Below are positions 2,415 through 36,912 of a DNA stretch of 37,119 nt, in pieces (position 1 is the first letter of the stretch; each line of letters starts with the position of its first letter). Origin of the DNA: a virus. Both the position numbers and the translations under genes were made by a program. The DNA is taken from positions 1 to 37,119 of the IMG/VR virus record IMGVR_UViG_3300028563_000004; one strand, written 5' to 3'. The notes beneath the pieces were generated by a model that saw nothing but the letters and a program-made list of their open reading frames with translations, was not told the DNA's origin and made no database searches.

Positions 2415-2629
2415 TTGGTTTCCTCAAGTTTCTTCTTTAATAGATAGTTTTCTTCTATTTTTTTATGATAACTATCGCATATCGTATGCCACTGCTTCAA
2501 GTTTCTATTCTCCGCATCAATGAATTTCTTCTCTAACGCAATGACTTGCTTACTTAAAAATAAATAATTGAAGAGTGTTCCTAAGAGAGTGCCACATATT
2601 ATTCCGGTAACAACTACGACACTGATCAT
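2411..2629 (-). CDS. Small membrane-anchored coiled-coil protein (possible spanin or holin)
   Basis: 72 residues: one hydrophobic segment at about residues 3-26, followed by a charged coiled-coil region to the end. ATGA overlap with the upstream terminase small subunit gene and TTGA overlap with the downstream gene. An N-terminal anchor plus periplasmic coiled coil is the architecture of inner-membrane spanins, and a lysis role would fit a position beside terminase genes. No partner lipoprotein or endolysin is recognisable, so the lysis assignment is only a suggestion. Confidence 0.65.
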   Translation of the reverse strand: MISVVVVTGIICGTLLGTLFNYLFLSKQVIALEKKFIDAENRNLKQWHTICDSYHKKIEENYLLKKKLEETN

Positions 2630-3138
2630 TCCTTACCTTCCACTGCCTCTATCATCTCTTCCTTGCTCACAACCTTAGGCTTAGCATCACTAATAATAAA
2701 CGTATGCGCCTGCTTCTCTTGCTCAACCTTCATATCACTATGATACTTATTAATAGCCAACCATTCAGGGTCATAGCAATGCATATCTCTCAATGCCATA
2801 TCTTTGTCATATTTACGGGTTAACGCCCCTTTACGCCGACGTGATCCCAGTATCAAACGTGTTATATCTAAAGCCTCTTTTATGTCAGGATACTTATCAG
2901 CCCATGAGTATAAAGTCTGTCTATGCATCTTCATCTCGATAGCGAAATCGGTAATCTCCAAGCTATCTTCTTGAGATGCCCATTCTAACATAGTACATGT
3001 AAAGCGCTTTCGCCAATCATCCTTCTCTGGAAATTGCATGTAGGCGCGATTATTCAGATAGTCATTCCACGACATGGGTTTTGACAATGGTTTTACATCC
3101 ATGCTACTTTGAGGGATTTTTTCTATCTTCTTTGCCAT
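2626..3138 (-). CDS. terS: Probable terminase small subunit
   Basis: 170 residues with a helix-turn-helix at about 62-81 (ITDFAIEMKMHRQTLYSWAD), followed by a helical segment typical of small terminases that recognise the packaging site and form a ring with the large subunit. The typical family wording of the HTH (F-A-x5-R-x-T-L-Y-x-W) followed by a K-Y-P-x-I-x-E-A-L stretch supports the call. It overlaps the RusA-like gene by 1 nt (TAATG) and lies about 950 bp upstream of terL. A general HTH regulator is the alternative. Confidence 0.8.
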   Translation of the reverse strand: MAKKIEKIPQSSMDVKPLSKPMSWNDYLNNRAYMQFPEKDDWRKRFTCTMLEWASQEDSLEITDFAIEMKMHRQTLYSWADKYPDIKEALDITRLILGSRRRKGALTRKYDKDMALRDMHCYDPEWLAINKYHSDMKVEQEKQAHTFIISDAKPKVVSKEEMIEAVEGKE

Positions 3139-3518
3139 TACTGCACCTCAGTGATGATTATCTCCGTTCTTGGGTTTTTATCATACACTTTTTTGAGGGT
3201 TAATGAACATATAATAGAATCATTTTCAATGAGTATTCCCTTGATCGTTTCAAGGAGAAATTTGTAGAGGTTAGATAGACAGGGAGGAGCGGAGGTGTAT
3301 ATTCCTTTGCTAAAATCTTTTTGATGGCGAGATAGATAAAATACTACCTCAAGGTTGATAGGTTTATTGAATAGGGGTTCTTCATTATGCTGTTGATTCA
3401 GATGCAGACCAAAGGATACCTTGTTCATCGTTTGGGGTCCATACATCTTGCTCGTGCTTCTTACTATTTTTTGCCATGCTATGGGAGTCATGTTCACGCA
3501 ATACATTTTGCTTCTCAT
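3138..3518 (-). CDS. RusA-like Holliday junction resolvase family protein with degenerate active site
   Basis: 126 residues with the RusA fold order: N-terminal strands with a PLFNKPINLEVVFYL segment, then the usual acidic motif region, a helix (NLYKFLLETIKG), an ND pair and the C-terminal SLTLKKVYDKNPRTEIIIT, which matches the family end strands. RusA enzymes resolve four-way junctions using Asp residues of a KPDxDN motif and a DD pair. Here the first motif reads PPCLSN (78-83), so both Asps are replaced; the second reads END (98-100), keeping one Asp. Catalysis is therefore doubtful and a DNA-binding-only role is possible. The start has an AAGGAG site 5 nt upstream. Its position just before terS fits a role in preparing replicated DNA for packaging. 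Confidence 0.75.
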   Translation of the reverse strand: MRSKMYCVNMTPIAWQKIVRSTSKMYGPQTMNKVSFGLHLNQQHNEEPLFNKPINLEVVFYLSRHQKDFSKGIYTSAPPCLSNLYKFLLETIKGILIENDSIICSLTLKKVYDKNPRTEIIITEVQ

Positions 3519-3814: not shown

Positions 3815-5057
3815 AAACTTCTTTCAATTTATCTTCAGCAATTCCTAATTCTCTTTCAGCATTCCAAAGCATTCTTTCTAAATATCCTGTGCCACCATAT
3901 CCATTTGAAGGAAAATCAGTCATGAATTGCTTGTAAGTCTGTATCTGTAATTTCCATTTCTCTACACGAGCCTGCAAAGGAACAATTTGCTGCATCTCTT
4001 GCCAATCTTCTTGTTTCTTACCCTTTGTAGGATTCTTCTCTTCAATTTGTTGCTTTAAACTGGCAATTGTTTTTTTATCATGTAAAGAACCCCCATAAAT
4101 GGAAAATCTTTCTTCTCGTTGTTTTAATTCAATGCCTATCCTACGCAATTGTTCTTCAAATGATAGGTTTTGTATAGGCTTTTTTGGTTGAACCTGCTGT
4201 GATTTCAAAGGTTTTTTAGCGAACTCACTCTTAGGGTTCATACCAATAATATCACACAAATCATAATACCATTTCCAATCAGGCTTGATATCATTATCCT
4301 TGCAGTATTTTATAAGCAATGACATCAACCAAGCCATCCTATCGTTTATAGCATATTTTAAAACCCTATCCCCCGTAACAATAGGTTCAATCTCACTAAA
4401 AGCATGAGCCAATGCTTCTTCCGAAAATGGTGTAAGCCTAAAATATTCATTGTCATCAAGCTCCAACAAGTTGGATATTTTGAATATCTCAGTGCCTATA
4501 ATCATCTCTCTCACGCTTGCGCTAGTGAGATATTCTTTCATTTGGGGGTCATTACGATACTGTCGAACGAGTTGCTTCACTTCAAAATTCACTACATTTC
4601 CTTTTTTTGAAATATTTTTTCTAAACCTATCCTTTACCGATGCCTCGCGCGCATGTGTTTGTAACTTACTACTATAGGAGGACTCTAGGATAGGATAGGA
4701 GTTTATAAATAAACTATCTTCTAAGATAAGACTCTTATAAGGGATGAACAATTCACACTGAAATGTATATTGATTTGGTGAATAGATATCTTGCTGCTTT
4801 TTAGTAATAAGACCAGCTTTATGAAACTTAGCAGTAGCTTTCTGAACTGTACGAACAGTACAGCCTATTCTTTTAGCTATAGTCTCATTCTTAAACTTAA
4901 CTGATGGATAGTGGCGATAGCGCCAGAGATGTTGATAGATTCTTTGCTCAGTGAGAGTGAGATTATTCACATCCTGCATGGCAGTGTGAAAATCTTTTTG
5001 AGAGAAGCTTGTATTTAACGCTTGATTTTTTATTTGTGTATGGTACATTGTTATCAT
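3768..5057 (-). CDS. Winged-helix replication-initiator-like protein
   Basis: Numbered from the ATG at 5057 (429 aa), residues about 30-85 form a winged helix-turn-helix (LTLTEQRIYQHLWRYR, then ETIAKRIGCTVRTVQKATAK and HKAGLITKK), as found in plasmid and phage replication initiators and DnaD/Rep-type primosome proteins. The rest is helical and charged, with a coiled-coil C-terminal third. It is the only replication candidate in the genome and follows a dyad-containing gap that could be an origin or operator. Three starts are open: TTG 5102, ATG 5057, ATG 5048. None has a good ribosome binding site, but a 25-codon leader frame ends 4 nt before the ATG at 5057, so coupling may set the start. 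A large transcription regulator is the alternative. Confidence 0.7.
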   Translation of the reverse strand: MITMYHTQIKNQALNTSFSQKDFHTAMQDVNNLTLTEQRIYQHLWRYRHYPSVKFKNETIAKRIGCTVRTVQKATAKFHKAGLITKKQQDIYSPNQYTFQCELFIPYKSLILEDSLFINSYPILESSYSSKLQTHAREASVKDRFRKNISKKGNVVNFEVKQLVRQYRNDPQMKEYLTSASVREMIIGTEIFKISNLLELDDNEYFRLTPFSEEALAHAFSEIEPIVTGDRVLKYAINDRMAWLMSLLIKYCKDNDIKPDWKWYYDLCDIIGMNPKSEFAKKPLKSQQVQPKKPIQNLSFEEQLRRIGIELKQREERFSIYGGSLHDKKTIASLKQQIEEKNPTKGKKQEDWQEMQQIVPLQARVEKWKLQIQTYKQFMTDFPSNGYGGTGYLERMLWNAERELGIAEDKLKEVYEKENLASASILVIS

Positions 5058-6777: not shown

Positions 6778-7362
6778 TTATTTCCTACTCTTCTCTATAT
6801 AAGTCTTAACTACTGAGAACAATTCAGATTTCACGTAGGAGAGGTTTTTTATTTTATAATGGCTCAATATATTAGCAGCTATTTCTTTTGCGTTAGAACA
6901 TGAATCTAGGAGCTTTTCAAGGTATTCTAACTGATCATCAGTGATAAATACTTCTCTCTCTGATTGCCCATCATCATCTTCCTCAGCAGTAATAGCACAT
7001 AGTGATAGTAATGCTTGTTTCTTCATATAGGTATCAGCAGATCCCTTGCCTTGGTTGCCTGGCTTTTCGCTTTCAACTATCCTACAGTCCTCTATATACT
7101 GACCTGTTGGTGCATGTGTTAATCTGGTATACATATACTCAATGCCAGTATCATGAGGTCTCTTAAAGTGAGTAACCCATATACCTTGGTCTTTCAATGC
7201 GCCCTTGACTGCTTTGTAGATAGAGCCAAGCTTGGCATATTTATATTTCTGGAAGCTGTTGTCTCCATCAAGGCCAGTAGCGGTAAAGGTAGCCTGCATC
7301 ATCCCTGATGCTAATGATCGTATGTCTTCTGACATTGCGGGGGAGTTAGAGTTGATTTCCAT
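6778..7362 (-). CDS. erf: ERF-family single-strand annealing protein
   Basis: ERF proteins bind and anneal single-stranded DNA in phage recombination, for example to circularise or concatemerise genomes. In 194 residues the family features are visible: the KYKYAKLGSIYKAVKGAL motif (39-56), a GLxVTH-like strand after it, and the signature around 107-132 (GSADTYMKKQALLSLCAITAEEDDDG). Residues 140-194 form a separate small helical domain (DDQLEYLEKLL onward). Ribosome binding site AGGAAT; the stop of the upstream gene lies 2 nt before the start. A second ERF-like gene lies on the opposite strand at 9687. Confidence 0.9.
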   Translation of the reverse strand: MEINSNSPAMSEDIRSLASGMMQATFTATGLDGDNSFQKYKYAKLGSIYKAVKGALKDQGIWVTHFKRPHDTGIEYMYTRLTHAPTGQYIEDCRIVESEKPGNQGKGSADTYMKKQALLSLCAITAEEDDDGQSEREVFITDDQLEYLEKLLDSCSNAKEIAANILSHYKIKNLSYVKSELFSVVKTYIEKSRK

Positions 7363-9311: not shown

Positions 9312-9630
9312 TGAACTAGATGTTGAAATTAATCGTGTATGGGAAGAATATATAGGTCTTCATAATGAATTAGATTCGCATCGTGGTAAACCAATATCAG
9401 ATACTAATCTACCTGAAGTAAGTAGAATTCTGGGAGAAATACAAGAAACATTTGCAATATTATATCCAGCATATAATTTCATAGCAACAAGGCACCAATA
9501 TGTTACTAACGCAGTCACCGGATACAACGATTTTATCGAAACACTTAAAAAAGGCGGCGCAACAGAACATAAGCCAGAACCAACAATCATCATCCCAGGT
9601 GGAGATGGTAGAGTGTCCAACCTGTCGTGA
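9286..9630 (+). CDS. Hypothetical protein of rightward early operon
   Basis: 114 residues from the ATG at 9286, which follows AAGGAAGAGA; an upstream in-frame ATG at 9268 lacks a site. Helical, with a Pro-rich end. No recognised family. Its 3' end overlaps a 30-codon zinc-ribbon frame. Confidence 0.65.
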   Translation: MNLIEKLTNELDVEINRVWEEYIGLHNELDSHRGKPISDTNLPEVSRILGEIQETFAILYPAYNFIATRHQYVTNAVTGYNDFIETLKKGGATEHKPEPTIIIPGGDGRVSNLS

Positions 9631-9697
9631 AATCACACGATATCAATGGCAAACAACATGTTACCTCTGTTATAGAAAGTATTACGATGGAAGATAA
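9605..9697 (+). CDS. 30-residue zinc-ribbon mini-protein
   Basis: ATG at 9605 follows AGGTGGAG, a good Shine-Dalgarno match although close to the start. The 30 residues hold two Cys pairs, CPTC and CYLC, separated by 11 residues, as in a complete zinc ribbon, with aromatic and basic residues between and after them. It overlaps the upstream gene by 26 bp and the ERF-like gene by 11 bp. Coding is supported by the metal-site pattern and by the way the ERF-like start falls inside its last codons. Confidence 0.5.
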   Translation: MVECPTCREITRYQWQTTCYLCYRKYYDGR

Positions 9698-10382
9698 AAT
9701 AGTTACTTCAAGTTCTAACATCTATCGTTCAGAACAAATCAATGAGATTATGGGAGCTCTCAGTAAAGCACAGGGTTCATATAAGAAGCTTGTTGCAAAC
9801 CAGGATGCCCCAGGATGCAAGTTTGCTAACCTTGAAGCAATATTAGATGCGGTGAGAGAATCGTTGTCTAGTAATGGGATAGGGTTCTTCCAGTTTATTG
9901 AGTTATTGGATGAAGGTTCGGGTGCTGCATTGCTCAAGACAACACTTGGTCATGCATCAGGTCAATACATATCATCCTGTACCAGGGTTATGGCTGGTAA
10001 GACTGACAAACAAACAGGTAGAATCTATGAAGTTCATAAACGCTTACATGCGTTGATGTTATTGGGTATAGCTCCATCAAGCAATGATCCTATTGCCTTT
10101 GATGATGATGGTGAAATGATGGCAGAACAACATCTTATATCAGATATACGCAAGCCAAATGCACCTGATAAAAAGGAACTTGATTTCAATGATGTAATCA
10201 ATAAACATCAGTATGAAGAGCTTCTGATAGAGTTGAGTGGATTTGAGAAGCTTGCTAAGAATATTATGGAAACATATGGCATTGGTACACTTGCAGATCT
10301 TCCTGCATCAGAGTATCATACAGCACGTGCTAAGATATTAAAGATTAAGAGAGCTGAAGAAGAGTACGCTCGAAGAAAATAA
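9687..10382 (+). CDS. Second ERF-family-like single-strand annealing protein
   Basis: 231 residues from the ATG at 9687; a GTG at 9627 overlaps the upstream stop but has no ribosome binding site. ERF features: ALSKAQGSYKKL and CKFANLEAILDAV (the Y-x-LexI motif), a GIGFFQ strand, the GHASGQYISS turn, then RLHALMLLGIAPSSNDPIAFDDDGE, matching the alpha-helix and acidic end of ERF. The C-terminal domain (HQYEELLIELSG to the end) parallels the C-terminal domain of the ERF protein at 6778-7362. The conserved DTY signature is altered to EVHKRLHAL. Two ERF-type proteins on diverging transcripts are unusual. Confidence 0.75.
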   Translation: MEDKIVTSSSNIYRSEQINEIMGALSKAQGSYKKLVANQDAPGCKFANLEAILDAVRESLSSNGIGFFQFIELLDEGSGAALLKTTLGHASGQYISSCTRVMAGKTDKQTGRIYEVHKRLHALMLLGIAPSSNDPIAFDDDGEMMAEQHLISDIRKPNAPDKKELDFNDVINKHQYEELLIELSGFEKLAKNIMETYGIGTLADLPASEYHTARAKILKIKRAEEEYARRK

Positions 10383-19040: not shown

Positions 19041-20705
19041 TTAACTAGCTGTGTCTATAGAAACCCATGTAGTTCCGGCATCGCTATTTATGTAAGCTCG
19101 TGTAGTTGGGCTTGATCCATCTATACGCAAGTATAATGAACCCTGTCCTGCAGTAATAACACCATTAGGATCTCCTGTACCAGCAAGAAGTTTAGCAGCG
19201 CCAGGCAGTGTAACACCAGCAGTTGATGTTGTAATACTCAATCCAGCTGCAGCAACAACGGGTGTGCCGTTAGGGCTATTAAGCGTTAAGGTAGATCCAG
19301 CTGTTGTTGAACCAACGGCGGTAGCATGAGCTGTTGCACTTGTTCCTAAGTTCAAGGCACCAGTACCAACGTTAACAACAACAGATGTTGCACCTGTCGC
19401 ATTACCAATAGTTATTGTTCTTGCAGCTGCACCTGTACCAATATTCATATTTTGGGCTACAGCGTTATTACCGACATTTATAACACCACCAGAGGAATTG
19501 AGAGACATTGTACTTGTTGCGTTCAATGCCATTGTTCCGGTGGAAGATGCTACAAAGTTGCCAGTACCTGACAGTAAACTTAATGAAGCTGCACCTGTTG
19601 CTGTACCAACGGTAACAACGTTATCAATAGCGCCAGTTGCGATATTAACTGTTTTGATACCTGTACCACCAGTAGCAATATTAACTGCTTGTGCACCCGT
19701 TCCTGGAGCAATAGACACTGTTCCTGTTTGGAGACCTGTACCACCAATACTTACCGTACCTGTAGTCATGGCTGTACCAATAGCAACTGATCCAGCTGTC
19801 TGGGTATTACCAATAGCTATAACGTTAGCACCTGTACCACCAACGTTGATAGTCTTAACTACCGCAGCACCAGTACCAATGTTGAGAGTTGTAGCAGCAG
19901 CATCACCAGAAATTGATATTGCACCTGTTCCAGTAATAAGGCCGAATGCACCATTAGTTGCACCAATTGCATAACCACCTGTTCCTGCAGTAAATGTCAT
20001 ACCTCCAGCAGCATCAGATGCACCTATACTAATTGCGGTAGCAGCAGCTTTTCCACCGTTAAGGGTAATACCACCATGAATAGAAACTAATCCAACAGAG
20101 GCATCATTAGTACCTTGTAGTGAAGCAATAGTTATTCGCTCACTTGTACCACCATTTGCAGTAAAACTTATCGCAGGGTTAGTATTTGATGTTGTAGTAA
20201 AACTTAATGCAGCAGCAGAAGTAATGTCAAAATCACCACTTATCGTTACATCACCCGTAACATCAAGATTACCATCAAACGTTACATCACCTGTAACATC
20301 AAGTGTACCACCTATAGTAGTATCACCCGTCACCGCAAGTGTTGAAGTTAATGTAGTTATACCTGCAGTAAGCTCACCTAAATTAGCTGCAGATGCTGCA
20401 TTCATATTCAAATCACCGGCAGTAATATTTACATCGCCAGCAGTAACCGTTAAGTCACCTGGATCCACGGTGAATGAAGTAGCAGTGGCTGCGCCAGCAT
20501 CAGCGGCAGTCCAAACATTAACACCACCAAGTGAAGAACATAAAATAAAATATGATTGGGAAACGGTGTTTACCCAGACGGTGCCCAATTCAGCCGTGTC
20601 AGATGCCAAAGGATCTCGTGGTTGAACTATTGGTTCCTGTTGTAGACTTGCGTTTGTTCCGTTATAGCCATAAAGCGAAAATCTTCTATTAACTTTAGTA
20701 GACAT
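19041..20705 (-). CDS. Tail fibre protein, low-complexity beta shaft
   Basis: 554 residues. N-terminal residues about 1-75 (YGYNGTNAS, LGTVWVNTVSQSYFILCS, VWTAADAG) match the anchor of the fibre at 10961-14170. The shaft is made of LDVTGDVTFDGN-type and NIGTGAAVKTINVGG-type repeats. The C-terminus (LLAGTGDPNGVITAGQGSLY, then RAYINSDAGTTWVSIDTAS) is a common fibre end motif. AAGGAG site before the ATG. Probably a structural fibre or a proximal segment on which others are mounted. Confidence 0.8.
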   Translation of the reverse strand: MSTKVNRRFSLYGYNGTNASLQQEPIVQPRDPLASDTAELGTVWVNTVSQSYFILCSSLGGVNVWTAADAGAATATSFTVDPGDLTVTAGDVNITAGDLNMNAASAANLGELTAGITTLTSTLAVTGDTTIGGTLDVTGDVTFDGNLDVTGDVTISGDFDITSAAALSFTTTSNTNPAISFTANGGTSERITIASLQGTNDASVGLVSIHGGITLNGGKAAATAISIGASDAAGGMTFTAGTGGYAIGATNGAFGLITGTGAISISGDAAATTLNIGTGAAVVKTINVGGTGANVIAIGNTQTAGSVAIGTAMTTGTVSIGGTGLQTGTVSIAPGTGAQAVNIATGGTGIKTVNIATGAIDNVVTVGTATGAASLSLLSGTGNFVASSTGTMALNATSTMSLNSSGGVINVGNNAVAQNMNIGTGAAARTITIGNATGATSVVVNVGTGALNLGTSATAHATAVGSTTAGSTLTLNSPNGTPVVAAAGLSITTSTAGVTLPGAAKLLAGTGDPNGVITAGQGSLYLRIDGSSPTTRAYINSDAGTTWVSIDTAS

Positions 20706-20775
20706 ACCATCTCCTTAACATAAAATAAATATCTTACTTATAGTAGATTACATTTCAGACTTATAAACAATATAG

Positions 20776-20804
20776 TTGACAATACTTCACTATCATGATA
20801 GTAT
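20776..20804 (+). promoter_or_regulatory. Promoter with palindromic operator for the RHH cassette
   Basis: TTGACA at 20776-20781 and TAGTAT at 20799-20804 are 17 nt apart. A perfect 14-bp palindrome ACTATCATGATAGT (20789-20802) covers the spacer and most of the -10 box. Ribbon-helix-helix proteins bind such short palindromes, so the gene that follows probably represses itself here. Confidence 0.65.
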
Positions 20805-20825
20805 ATAAATAGAAAGGTAAATAAA

Positions 20826-21002
20826 ATGATAGAAAAAAAGAAACGTACACAAATGACTTTCGACATACAACCAGAAATACATCATAAAGTAAAAATATTA
20901 GCAGCAATACGCAATATAAGTATAAATCTTTGGGCCCAAAGGGCCATAATTCGAGAAATAAATAGACAGGAAAGAAATGAAAGGAACGATGATGGAACGT
21001 AA
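20826..21002 (+). CDS. Ribbon-helix-helix DNA-binding protein
   Basis: 58 residues, GAAAGG site upstream of the ATG. Residues 7-14 (RTQMTFDI) form the DNA-contacting strand, with helices at about 16-29 and 33-49 (ISINLWAQRAIIREI): the Arc/CopG/MetJ layout. Such proteins are dimeric repressors, often self-regulating or antitoxins. The palindrome in its own promoter supports autorepression. It lies antisense to the late operon, in a gap between fibre and ejection genes, and overlaps the next gene by 26 bp. Confidence 0.75.
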   Translation: MIEKKKRTQMTFDIQPEIHHKVKILAAIRNISINLWAQRAIIREINRQERNERNDDGT

Positions 21003-21330
21003 ATTCGAAGTAGTATTTAACATTATAAAAACTGAAGACATTCCACCTTTAAAAAAATTAACATATAAAAAAAATCAAAGAATAAAAAATGAAGAAGGAT
21101 TACGAGAAGGATATTTCATAAAAAAAACTAAAGAACAAATGGATGAAGTTCTAAAATCTTGGGGGCTTACTCGTCCAGGAACAAGTCATATTTCTGAATG
21201 GTGTCACCCACTTTGCTATAAAACAGTAGAATATGGTTATCATGAACCAAATCCAGTTTTTAATGGATTATGTCGTAAAGATTGTGATGATAAAGAATGT
21301 TCATTCAAACATGGAAATTATTCATGGTAG
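20977..21330 (+). CDS. Cys/His-rich protein with CCCH-like finger
   Basis: 117 residues from the ATG at 20977 (AGGA at 5 nt); an ATG at 20989 is also possible. Residues 1-60 are basic and helical. The C-terminal third has WCHPLC and then CRKDCDDKECSFKHG, a C-x3-C-x4-C-x3-H pattern resembling CCCH zinc fingers, which usually bind RNA and are mostly eukaryotic. No known family for the whole. It is coupled to the RHH repressor gene and followed by a small membrane protein gene, which gives a compact independently controlled cassette. Confidence 0.65.
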   Translation: MKGTMMERKFEVVFNIIKTEDIPPLKKLTYKKNQRIKNEEGLREGYFIKKTKEQMDEVLKSWGLTRPGTSHISEWCHPLCYKTVEYGYHEPNPVFNGLCRKDCDDKECSFKHGNYSW

Positions 21331-21348
21331 GGAAATTAAAGGAACAAA

Positions 21349-21513
21349 ATGAACATATTTAATTTTATAATAAAAGGGACAATAGCAACATACGCCCTTG
21401 TTGCATGGCTATATATTGCTATTCCTTTAGTAATATTAACTTTTTTTTCTATCTATTATCTCGTGGTAAACATTTTTGCTACTCTATCAACTTTTTTACC
21501 TATTTTATCTTGA
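21349..21513 (+). CDS. 54-residue hydrophobic membrane protein
   Basis: ATG at 21349 with AAAGGA 5 nt upstream. Almost wholly hydrophobic from residue 11 on: about 17-34 and 36-53 could form two membrane helices. Last gene of the RHH cassette. It overlaps the 3' end of the minus-strand gene 21456-22640 by 58 bp tail to tail, so both frames are open there. No terminator is visible after it. Confidence 0.55.
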   Translation: MNIFNFIIKGTIATYALVAWLYIAIPLVILTFFSIYYLVVNIFATLSTFLPILS

Positions 21514-22640
21514 ACTTGTTGTTCAATATCTATTGGAGGTATACCGCCATTTTCTTTGATAATAGATCTAGCCGCTTTTGCTTCAATCTCAGTCAATTCA
21601 TTAAGCGATCGTATGTTATTAATTAATTTTTTCTTGCCAGCATCTGTCTGCATAAGCGTAGGTACTGTATGCATAAACATCTCAACTTCTTTTTGAGTTA
21701 TTCTAGATCCAAAATATTGTTTTGCATTTTTTACAAACTCGCTAGAAAGCTTTTCAAATTCTTCAATATCAGATGGCTCTCCTGAATACCATTTAACACC
21801 GCCCTTTAAAAGTTCTGCAAAAGGAGCAGTAAGTCCACTAATAAAAGGAGCATTCTCAAATTTTGATAATGCAGACCATAAAGCAGCGTTAGGAAGATTA
21901 CCTTTATCTATTAACTTTTCCATACGACCAAGACGTAAGTCAGCTTCTTTTACAGCTTTTTCTTTAGCTTTGAGTTCATCTACATACTTTTTAGTTTTTT
22001 TAATATTTTCACGTCTCTCCGAAAGTGCTAGCTTTTTATTCTCACGTTCTTCTTTTTGTATCGCTAATCTTTCTTTTTGTCTTGCTAATCTTTGCTGAGG
22101 CGTCTCAAATAATTGAGAAATCAATTCCGCCTGCTCAGGACTCAATTGCCCTTGTCCTTGATTTCCTTGTTGTCCAACTTCTTGCTGTGGATAGCCAAAT
22201 TGCTGCTGAGGTTGCGGTTGTAACAACGATTGCATCTGTTGCCCACCACCAAGTGTTGGGTTGTTAAAGTATTGTTGTAAAGCTGATTGTAGTTCATGTT
22301 GTGGGTTATATTGTTCTTGCTCTTGTTCTGGACGCTGTTGATAGCCAGCTAACGCTCCCATGCCAACTTGTTCTTTTGGGGATTCTTTGCTTAGCTCTAT
22401 TAAAAATTTTGGACTCTGAAATATAAGTTTACGTTCTTCAGGTGAAAAATGACTTAAGCGGGTAGCAGTATTTCTACCCAATAATGGTTCCCAATTTTTG
22501 GAAAAATCAGAACGTTCTTTTTTTGTATCATATTTTTTTGTTATTTCGGCTAATTTATATGCAGCAAGGTCTTGTATACCAGCACCTAATACTTCACCAA
22601 GTTGACCACCAAAATTTTTACGCGGTATTGATTGTATCAT
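21456..22640 (-). CDS. Probable internal virion/ejection protein
   Basis: 394 residues: a short N-terminal part with a Gly-rich turn (GGQLGEVLGAG), a Gln/Pro-rich middle (about 100-170), a long coiled coil (about 185-245) and a helical C-terminus. Large, Gln-rich helical proteins encoded next to a Gly-zipper protein and between tail nozzle and fibres are typical of podovirus ejection proteins that exit the capsid with the DNA. No lytic transglycosylase motif is visible. Confidence 0.6.
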   Translation of the reverse strand: MIQSIPRKNFGGQLGEVLGAGIQDLAAYKLAEITKKYDTKKERSDFSKNWEPLLGRNTATRLSHFSPEERKLIFQSPKFLIELSKESPKEQVGMGALAGYQQRPEQEQEQYNPQHELQSALQQYFNNPTLGGGQQMQSLLQPQPQQQFGYPQQEVGQQGNQGQGQLSPEQAELISQLFETPQQRLARQKERLAIQKEERENKKLALSERRENIKKTKKYVDELKAKEKAVKEADLRLGRMEKLIDKGNLPNAALWSALSKFENAPFISGLTAPFAELLKGGVKWYSGEPSDIEEFEKLSSEFVKNAKQYFGSRITQKEVEMFMHTVPTLMQTDAGKKKLINNIRSLNELTEIEAKAARSIIKENGGIPPIDIEQQVQDKIGKKVDRVAKMFTTR

Positions 22641-23515: not shown

Positions 23516-24037
23516 TTAGAATTTACAGTATTCAAGAGTTACTTGCGAATCGGTAAAGGTAATACCTGAGTTATTATTTATAACAACTTGAGTTGCCGTA
23601 ACACTTACTTGAATATTATTACCTGCGGCATCTGCATAAGGTATAGGATAGCCAACTAAAGTCACTGTATCAGTAGCGGCACCTGAAATGAACATCCATT
23701 GGTATAGTGCTGTAACGGGAATATTATGATCTATAGATGTTACACCAGCTCCTAAAGGCCCTGTATTAACAGTTTTAAGATATCCATTGCGAAATGTATT
23801 AACATTAGCGGGATCATAAAACAATTTACCACTTAAAAACTCTTGATTAATATTATAACCCGTAACCTTTGTGTTAAGTACTAAGGCAATGTTATTAATG
23901 TTTTGGTAAAGTCTAACTAATAGTTCCTTAAACTCATCACTATTAACATCAACTTCATACAACCGACCAACATCCCATATATTAGTGGTAGGGACATATG
24001 ACCCTGTATTTATTTGTTGATTAGGTATATATGCCAT
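23516..24037 (-). CDS. Tail-associated structural protein
   Basis: 173 residues. The N-terminal half is helical (DEFKELLVRLYQNINNIALV), the C-terminal half is beta-rich with a strand/turn pattern (VTLVGYPIPYADAAGN) seen in tail tips and fibres. It follows the tail nozzle gene. I believe such proteins occur in other podoviruses, but the exact role is unknown to me; an adaptor for a tail appendage is likely. Confidence 0.65.
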   Translation of the reverse strand: MAYIPNQQINTGSYVPTTNIWDVGRLYEVDVNSDEFKELLVRLYQNINNIALVLNTKVTGYNINQEFLSGKLFYDPANVNTFRNGYLKTVNTGPLGAGVTSIDHNIPVTALYQWMFISGAATDTVTLVGYPIPYADAAGNNIQVSVTATQVVINNNSGITFTDSQVTLEYCKF

Positions 24038-34845: not shown

Positions 34846-36912
34846 CTATCCATTCACCGAACCATTCGATGAAAGTTGAGGAGAATTTGTCTTAGTGGCC
34901 TTGATACCACTCGTTTTTTCTTCTTTAACAGCTTCTTGTTCTCTTAACATCTGCTGTATAGATACTATCTGTTGTAGATGGGAAATGTCTATGTTTTCTA
35001 TTTCCTTCATAGCTCTCACAAAGTTGAGTAATGCCATATTGTCATCTGCCACCGCTTTAGCACGACGTTCAACGCCAAGCGCTTTATTTTCATCAACACG
35101 ACTATAACGTTCAACTCCAAGTCCTTCGTCTGCAACGGCTCTTGCTTGCGCCAATTGAGTACGAGCTTGAGCTTCTTGCATTTGAGATTGTAATTGCATT
35201 TGTTGTATTTGTTCAGCCTGTTGTTGCTGTTGCTCTAGTTTCTCAATCATCTTGTCTTTATCTTGTAGTGTCGCTGCATCAATAAGGCTAGAATCAGGTA
35301 TTGGTACACCCATTTCTTTAAGCTGCATAAGTTGAGCGAACTGCATTTGTTTCTGTGATTCAGTATTGAAGCCCATCTCTACCATACAATGATATTTACC
35401 AAATGATTTGTTATAGAACAATGGCGCAGGTTCATCACCTTCTAGTAAGTTTTTAATCTTACCTGGTGTGTAGTTATGTTGTATAACTTTCATAATCAAT
35501 TCACCAAGCAAGTTCTGAGAGAAGTCTAACCTATCAAACAATGGCTGTAGCGTTGTAAGCCCTGCTCCTTGGCGAAGCGCAGATAGTATTCCTGCCTTAT
35601 CATCAAGCGCTGATCCCATAAGCTCTTCATTGATACCTGAAACAAGATTCATTTCTTTGGAGAATGTATCCTGTAACTGGAAGAAGTATTGGGGAATTGA
35701 AGGAGGAGTAATTTGTTGAATGTCAGTCATTTGAGATTCTTCCTTCAATGGAATAATCCTACCCTGACCTGTTTGGAATAGATGTTTAACATCAACTACG
35801 GCATTTTCCTTAAATATCCAACCACTGTTAACCACCGACTCAGCAGCATCCGCTGAAAGGATTACACGGCGGTTAAACAGTATTTGGGGATCTCTCAAGG
35901 AACGGCAGATACCTTGTATACGGCTGTAAAAGTATGGCATCATTGGGTTATAGTAACCAAGCACAGGCACAAAGGGATACGTATCTATATTTAAGTTGTT
36001 TGGACCATCGTAGAATACCTTGTCCTGAATCATGATAGCCATACGAACTGTTGGAATATTCTGCTCAACAATCATAACTTGGGGATAATGAGATAAGAAT
36101 GTTTCAACATCCGCGTTGGTTTGATTGGTGATTTCCATAGTCTCACCAGTAACTTTATCAACTAATAATTTTTGTTTGCGATAATCGCGGTAATAATATT
36201 CGTCATAGGCAAGTCTATTTTGTTGTGTTTGTCCAAAGCTTTCAGGCATGTATTGGAATCTACCATCACGTCCTGTACCTGTTGGATTACCTTCAAGTGA
36301 CATGATCTCATCATACTTGTCTGGTAACAAAGCAGCTGCTGCGCTATGTGATAGGTATGATCTTCTCCATACAAATGAGCAATCTGATAGATCAGGCTTA
36401 CGGAAGTATGGATCAATAAAAAAGCTATTGTATGAACAGTTATCAACTTTAATGTCGCCTGAAACAGGATCGTTTTGGTAATCCATGTATACATGAAGTA
36501 AGTTCATACCTGCTATGCAGCCACCTTGGTGGAATGCTTCAGATACTGTCTCATAAATGCCTTCACGCTTGTAGATATTGAGAAGAACTTTAGTTAATTG
36601 GTCGGCAGTTTGTTGGTCACCATTTTCAAGGGGAATTACAATAGTAGATTTTCTGTTACGTCGTTGGTAACCGGATACCATGTTACATAAAGGACGAACA
36701 CGATTGAAATAGAACGATCCTCTATTGTTGTTAGGCATCGTTGTATTAAGTTCTGCCATCAAGGAAGTATCACCTGCTTCAAGGCGTGTATCAATAGTCG
36801 CTTCAGTCCAATATATCTGCCAAATAGCCTGATTAGCAGTATAGTCAGAGTCTATTTTTCTCTTAATAGCACCATAACTATCATTTAAATACTCAGGTTG
36901 CCTCATTAACAT
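34846..36912 (-). CDS. Portal protein (P22-like family)
   Basis: 688 residues, the size range of P22-type portals. Visible features: FYFNRVRPLCNMVSGYQRRN (67-86), typical of the family; FIDPYFRKPDLSDCSFVWRR; the region DTYPFVPVLGYYNPMMPYFY followed by GICRSLRDPQILFNRRVILS; then GINEELMGSALDDKAGILSA and a long Gln-rich coiled coil (about 555-615) at the C-terminus, as in portal barrels. The dodecamer forms the DNA entry vertex, binds terminase and the tail adaptor. GAGAGG site before the ATG. Confidence 0.93.
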   Translation of the reverse strand: MLMRQPEYLNDSYGAIKRKIDSDYTANQAIWQIYWTEATIDTRLEAGDTSLMAELNTTMPNNNRGSFYFNRVRPLCNMVSGYQRRNRKSTIVIPLENGDQQTADQLTKVLLNIYKREGIYETVSEAFHQGGCIAGMNLLHVYMDYQNDPVSGDIKVDNCSYNSFFIDPYFRKPDLSDCSFVWRRSYLSHSAAAALLPDKYDEIMSLEGNPTGTGRDGRFQYMPESFGQTQQNRLAYDEYYYRDYRKQKLLVDKVTGETMEITNQTNADVETFLSHYPQVMIVEQNIPTVRMAIMIQDKVFYDGPNNLNIDTYPFVPVLGYYNPMMPYFYSRIQGICRSLRDPQILFNRRVILSADAAESVVNSGWIFKENAVVDVKHLFQTGQGRIIPLKEESQMTDIQQITPPSIPQYFFQLQDTFSKEMNLVSGINEELMGSALDDKAGILSALRQGAGLTTLQPLFDRLDFSQNLLGELIMKVIQHNYTPGKIKNLLEGDEPAPLFYNKSFGKYHCMVEMGFNTESQKQMQFAQLMQLKEMGVPIPDSSLIDAATLQDKDKMIEKLEQQQQQAEQIQQMQLQSQMQEAQARTQLAQARAVADEGLGVERYSRVDENKALGVERRAKAVADDNMALLNFVRAMKEIENIDISHLQQIVSIQQMLREQEAVKEEKTSGIKATKTNSPQLSSNGSVNG

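Follow-up and report, generated by a model that had tools for sequence, protein, structure and literature searches.

Three small genes, coding for a ribbon-helix-helix (RHH) protein, a 117-aa protein and a 54-aa protein, lie on the plus strand of a 37-kb virus record (37,119 nt, the whole of which is called the window here), between a fibre-like gene and a Q-rich gene of the late region on the minus strand. The locus raises the question of whether these genes form a self-controlled module and what such a module would do for the phage. The initial annotation had described the island as antisense to the late genes, and this was confirmed (Table 1). Elsewhere in the window we observed two separate genes for ERF-like single-strand annealing proteins on opposite strands, at 6778-7362 (-) and 9627-10382 (+).

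Table 1. Features of the antisense island and of its surroundings in the window
Feature	Position	Strand	Evidence or remark
Tail-fibre-like late gene, island flank	19041..20705	-	Same neighbour in relatives
Sigma70-type island promoter, TTGACA-17-TAGTAT	20776..20804	+	Promoter scan; most close relatives have TTGAC at this position
Perfect 14-bp palindrome ACTATCATGATAGT, putative RHH operator, across spacer and -10	20789..20802	strandless	
58-aa RHH protein (Arc/Mnt-like fold), constant gene of the island	20826..21002	+	Pfam, PHROGs, fold model, purifying selection
117-aa Cys/His-containing ORF (possible start 20989 or 20992), cargo of this phage alone	20977..21330	+	No relative, no family, no usable fold
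Small membrane protein of 54 aa, cargo; C-terminus lies over the opposing gene	21349..21513	+	
Q-rich late gene, island flank; candidate ejection protein	21456..22640	-	
Conserved 173-aa late protein, survey anchor	23516..24037	-	
P22-type portal protein	34846..36912	-	PF16510, E 9.8e-72

The RHH protein and its promoter

The assignment of the first gene to the RHH class was borne out by several lines of evidence. The protein matched Pfam family PF05534 (24 bits, cut-off 21) over its RHH part only, and it matched Arc-like PHROGs as well as a HicB-like one. A fold model built from 20 relatives (pLDDT 86) gave as its top Foldseek match the Arc repressor on its operator (1par), with a weak E-value (0.11) and a high probability, and antitoxin folds were also among the nearest structures. 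Across the aligned part the protein is 18% identical to Arc, with Q9 and residue 11 aligning with Q9 and N11 of Arc, and since the profile comparison with Arc or Mnt was not significant, the link to these repressors is one of fold. The gene is under purifying selection, with a pN of about 0.2 against a pS of about 0.7. Neither the RHH protein nor the 173-aa late protein showed DNA or protein similarity to isolated phages, and a search of 84,980 bacterial and archaeal genomes gave, as the sole match to the RHH profile, a 3.5-kb contig in a Methylococcaceae MAG.

The promoter scan placed a -35 hexamer TTGACA at 20776-20781 and a -10 box TAGTAT at 20799-20804, separated by a 17 bp spacer. Since shuffles lead one to expect 6.6 promoter-like sites and the scan returned 6, the promoter match by itself proves nothing. 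The palindrome described across the spacer and the -10 box was also confirmed; when the 53-bp promoter region of the window was shuffled with its dinucleotides preserved, an equally good palindrome had a p value of 0.03. Palindromes were enriched in the RHH promoters of 44 loci, with a mean score of 10.1 as compared with 7.6 in dinucleotide shuffles (Fisher p 5.6e-7, a combined value that is too optimistic because the loci are related and kinship was ignored). Their sequences vary between phages. Within the close group, the palindrome sits at a fixed place after TTGAC, and it drifts among close relatives (CTATCATGATAG, CTAACATGTTAG as in L002, CTAGCATGCTAG as in L049) while its register inside the promoter is unchanged; the promoters of L005, L008, L009 and L026 have no clear palindrome. 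In the 37-kb record the 12-bp core of the palindrome occurs once, with two-mismatch copies at chance level, and this single operator per phage in the sequence examined points to autoregulation. We infer that the RHH protein binds the palindrome, its putative operator, and the self-control proposed in the initial annotation is supported as probable.

A scan of the window found no intrinsic terminator at the island end. Upstream of the promoter, a conserved (A)AACAAT element was observed about 4 bases before the -35 hexamer throughout the close clade (window 20740-20776, and the upstream regions of L002-L041), where it is perhaps a binding site or an UP-like element.

Conservation of the island and exchange of its cargo

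Relatives in IMG/VR were collected through the neighbouring 173-aa late protein, and not through the RHH protein, to avoid circularity. A profile search detected an antisense RHH gene at the same junction in 49 of the 79 loci, some of which are near-identical contigs. Among the remaining 30, 25 end too near the anchor gene and L095 breaks off within the gene preceding the junction; L123, L127 and L133 lack the flank that, judging by gene order, would bear the island in the sub-group whose anchor gene is inverted; and L101 has an RHH-like ORF in antisense orientation (4386-4595), which was missed by the profile and seen by eye. Wherever the junction could be read, an antisense RHH gene heads the island. 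Inversion of the 173-aa late gene relative to its neighbours was observed in L105, L114, L124, L132, L134 (the contig of L056) and L139.

The genes after the RHH gene vary between phages, being a membrane protein alone in L007 and L034, an HNH protein with a membrane protein in L006 and L033, Cys-rich proteins in L002, L008, L025 and L041, and other types elsewhere. Some cargo families accompany more than one RHH branch, as does the PxWLH protein of L005, L012 and L041, indicating that cargo has been exchanged between phages. The pN was lower than the pS in nearly all pairs, and in most of the cargo pairs, with a ratio near 1 for the Cys-rich pair L025/L041. The fixed three-gene module that had been proposed was therefore not supported; downstream frames broken in relatives were not seen either, and relatives have different genes in place of these frames. 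What stays constant in the island is the RHH-promoter unit, and the two downstream genes are replaceable cargo. A predicted membrane protein was present in 41 of 51 islands (about 80%), as compared with 18% of 780 antisense control ORFs inside late genes, where the membrane call is a simple hydropathy rule, the first figure counts islands and the second ORFs, and automatic frame choice missed the 54-aa ORF of the window itself. In L061 (same contigs as L075/L076) and L067, we also observed at the same island position an RHH domain joined to the C terminus of a protein of the HNH type (about 175 aa).

Regarding the cargo of the window, the 117-aa ORF had no homologue in viral contigs and no Pfam or PHROGs family match, CCCH included, up to E = 5, while its fold model (pLDDT 46) was unusable. 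Its C-x3-C-x4-C-x3-H motif is a sequence pattern only, and the 'CCCH-like finger' of the initial annotation is unsupported. For the 54-aa protein a pattern scan gave no homologues, and reading the island of L075 revealed a protein in the same island with 51% identity (pN/pS 0.33/0.57); the hydrophobic ORF is likely to be a genuine gene. At its end, about 19 codons lie opposite the 3' end of the Q-rich gene. A conserved 'FATLSxLLPILS' end was considered as a functional motif of the membrane proteins and rejected, since it is present in unrelated frames of L012 and L041 too and so looks like a by-product of the overlapping opposing gene.

Among the 30 long records tested, which may be incomplete, all had a P22-type portal, while no tyrosine integrase, resolvase/serine integrase, antirepressor ANT domain (PF03374) or above-cut-off HTH_3 repressor was found. 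This phage lineage thus seems not to integrate.

Likeness to P22 immI and the possible role of the island

In the immI region of phage P22, mnt, orf59a and sieA lie in antisense orientation between gp16 and gp9. At this place phage L retains just an mnt-like gene with one short ORF (PMC8022706). The window-type island has the same arrangement, with small ORF(s) and a membrane protein downstream of an mnt-like antisense RHH gene, within the late operon in the region of the tail and injection genes, beside the tailspike or fibre gene. Very variable cargo is common to both. The immunity- or exclusion-like layout antisense to the late genes is therefore supported, and it matches P22 immI in position and strand. 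Unlike immI, the island has no divergent arc-ant, with only 120 bp between the RHH gene and the fibre gene, and unlike P22 it has a promoter palindrome of its own kind and is found in a clade without integrase. In addition, the 54-aa protein gave no alignment with SieA beyond 8 residues, and no profile similarity was detected between the Q-rich flanking gene and P22 gp20. Because arc-ant, similarity to SieA and similarity of the flanking gene to gp20 are all lacking, we call the island immI-like and not immI.

The explanation that we favour, at roughly an even balance of probability, is that of an autoregulated 'moron' locus on the antisense strand, the cargo of which would most likely block the entry of related phages or condition the host. 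Host RNA polymerase would read the palindrome promoter once phage DNA enters, and an RHH dimer would bind the palindrome overlapping the -10 box and shut off its own promoter, giving a short, self-limited pulse or a low steady level of RHH protein and cargo. Typical cargo, a small inner-membrane protein whose gene lies beside late tail/injection-type genes, would then most likely block the entry of related phages or condition the host, like P22 SieA, and late transcription would later cross the island on the other strand. The island probably acts for superinfection exclusion or host takeover, working like P22 immI (mnt...sieA), and exclusion by the membrane protein is its likeliest role.

A rather unlikely alternative is an early host-takeover island, in which the RHH protein would limit a burst of small host-remodelling proteins with different jobs and exclusion would not be the main role. 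It agrees with the mixed cargo (membrane, Cys-rich and HNH proteins), with a promoter near the host consensus, and with the finding of no integrase in 30 relatives, which may mean that no lysogen exists to profit from exclusion, but the over-representation of membrane proteins favours a common envelope target. We consider it highly improbable that the island is a toxin-antitoxin locus with the RHH protein as antitoxin and one downstream protein as toxin, a layout that the initial annotation had also suggested. HicAB and other RHH antitoxin systems have the RHH fold, an autoregulated promoter layout and the PF05534 match in common with the island; the scores to this HicB family and to the HicB-like PHROG, the antitoxin folds among the nearest structures and the overlap of the genes all point the same way. 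However, the PF05534 match is confined to the RHH part, and Pfam, PHROGs and PADLOC found neither HicA or another toxin family nor a defence system in the window cargo; unlike that of HicAB, moreover, the cargo of the island is variable. Unlike one half of a matched pair, the RHH gene stays while the cargo changes completely between relatives, and it is fused to an HNH domain in two loci. There is equally little reason to expect that the RHH protein serves as immunity repressor in a persistent state without integration (plasmid-like or carrier), with the island as its maintenance region: universal presence and phage-specific palindromes do look like repressor diversification, and no other above-cut-off HTH_3 repressor was found, but the window record has a single operator and the 84,980 genomes yielded only the match to one short contig.

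Building on the favoured reading of an autoregulated exclusion locus, a broader claim, which we put forward tentatively and consider unlikely, is that an integrase-less lineage with P22-type portals keeps a universal antisense exclusion island made of co-evolved RHH-operator pairs, each the phage's own, and of swapped membrane effectors. If this were true, superinfection exclusion and an 'immunity type' would exist without integrated lysogeny. On the favoured reading itself, the immI-type arrangement would be a constant feature among uncultured podoviruses of a lineage that apparently does not integrate, and not a peculiarity of temperate Salmonella-type phages. The island is also a defined place in which to seek small entry-blocking membrane proteins.

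Residue 11 of the RHH protein and the operator

The RHH proteins and operators of these islands vary naturally, and as a series they could be used to test how DNA specificity is determined by beta-strand residues. In Arc, Asn11 contacts DNA. Among the relatives, residue 11 is Thr with the half-site CTAT and mostly Ala with the half-site CTAA, and the Thr11 proteins are scattered on the tree, which is weakly resolved. The window protein has Thr at this position, that of L002 has Ala and that of L049 has Asn. When every RHH column was compared with a single operator base, residue 11 ranked first (p 0.0002-0.0005, the value of 0.0005 depending on the shifted site chosen for L030). When all sites were set in one register and all positions were tested, the residue-11 pair came near the top (p about 0.006) and was lost after correction for 324 tests. 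As proof of binding the covariation was therefore rejected, the strict test with correction not being significant; the alignments are suggestive of a covariation of residue 11 with the operator. As a separate observation, the island of L122 contains three RHH-like ORFs (2437-3150 in RHH-strand coordinates).
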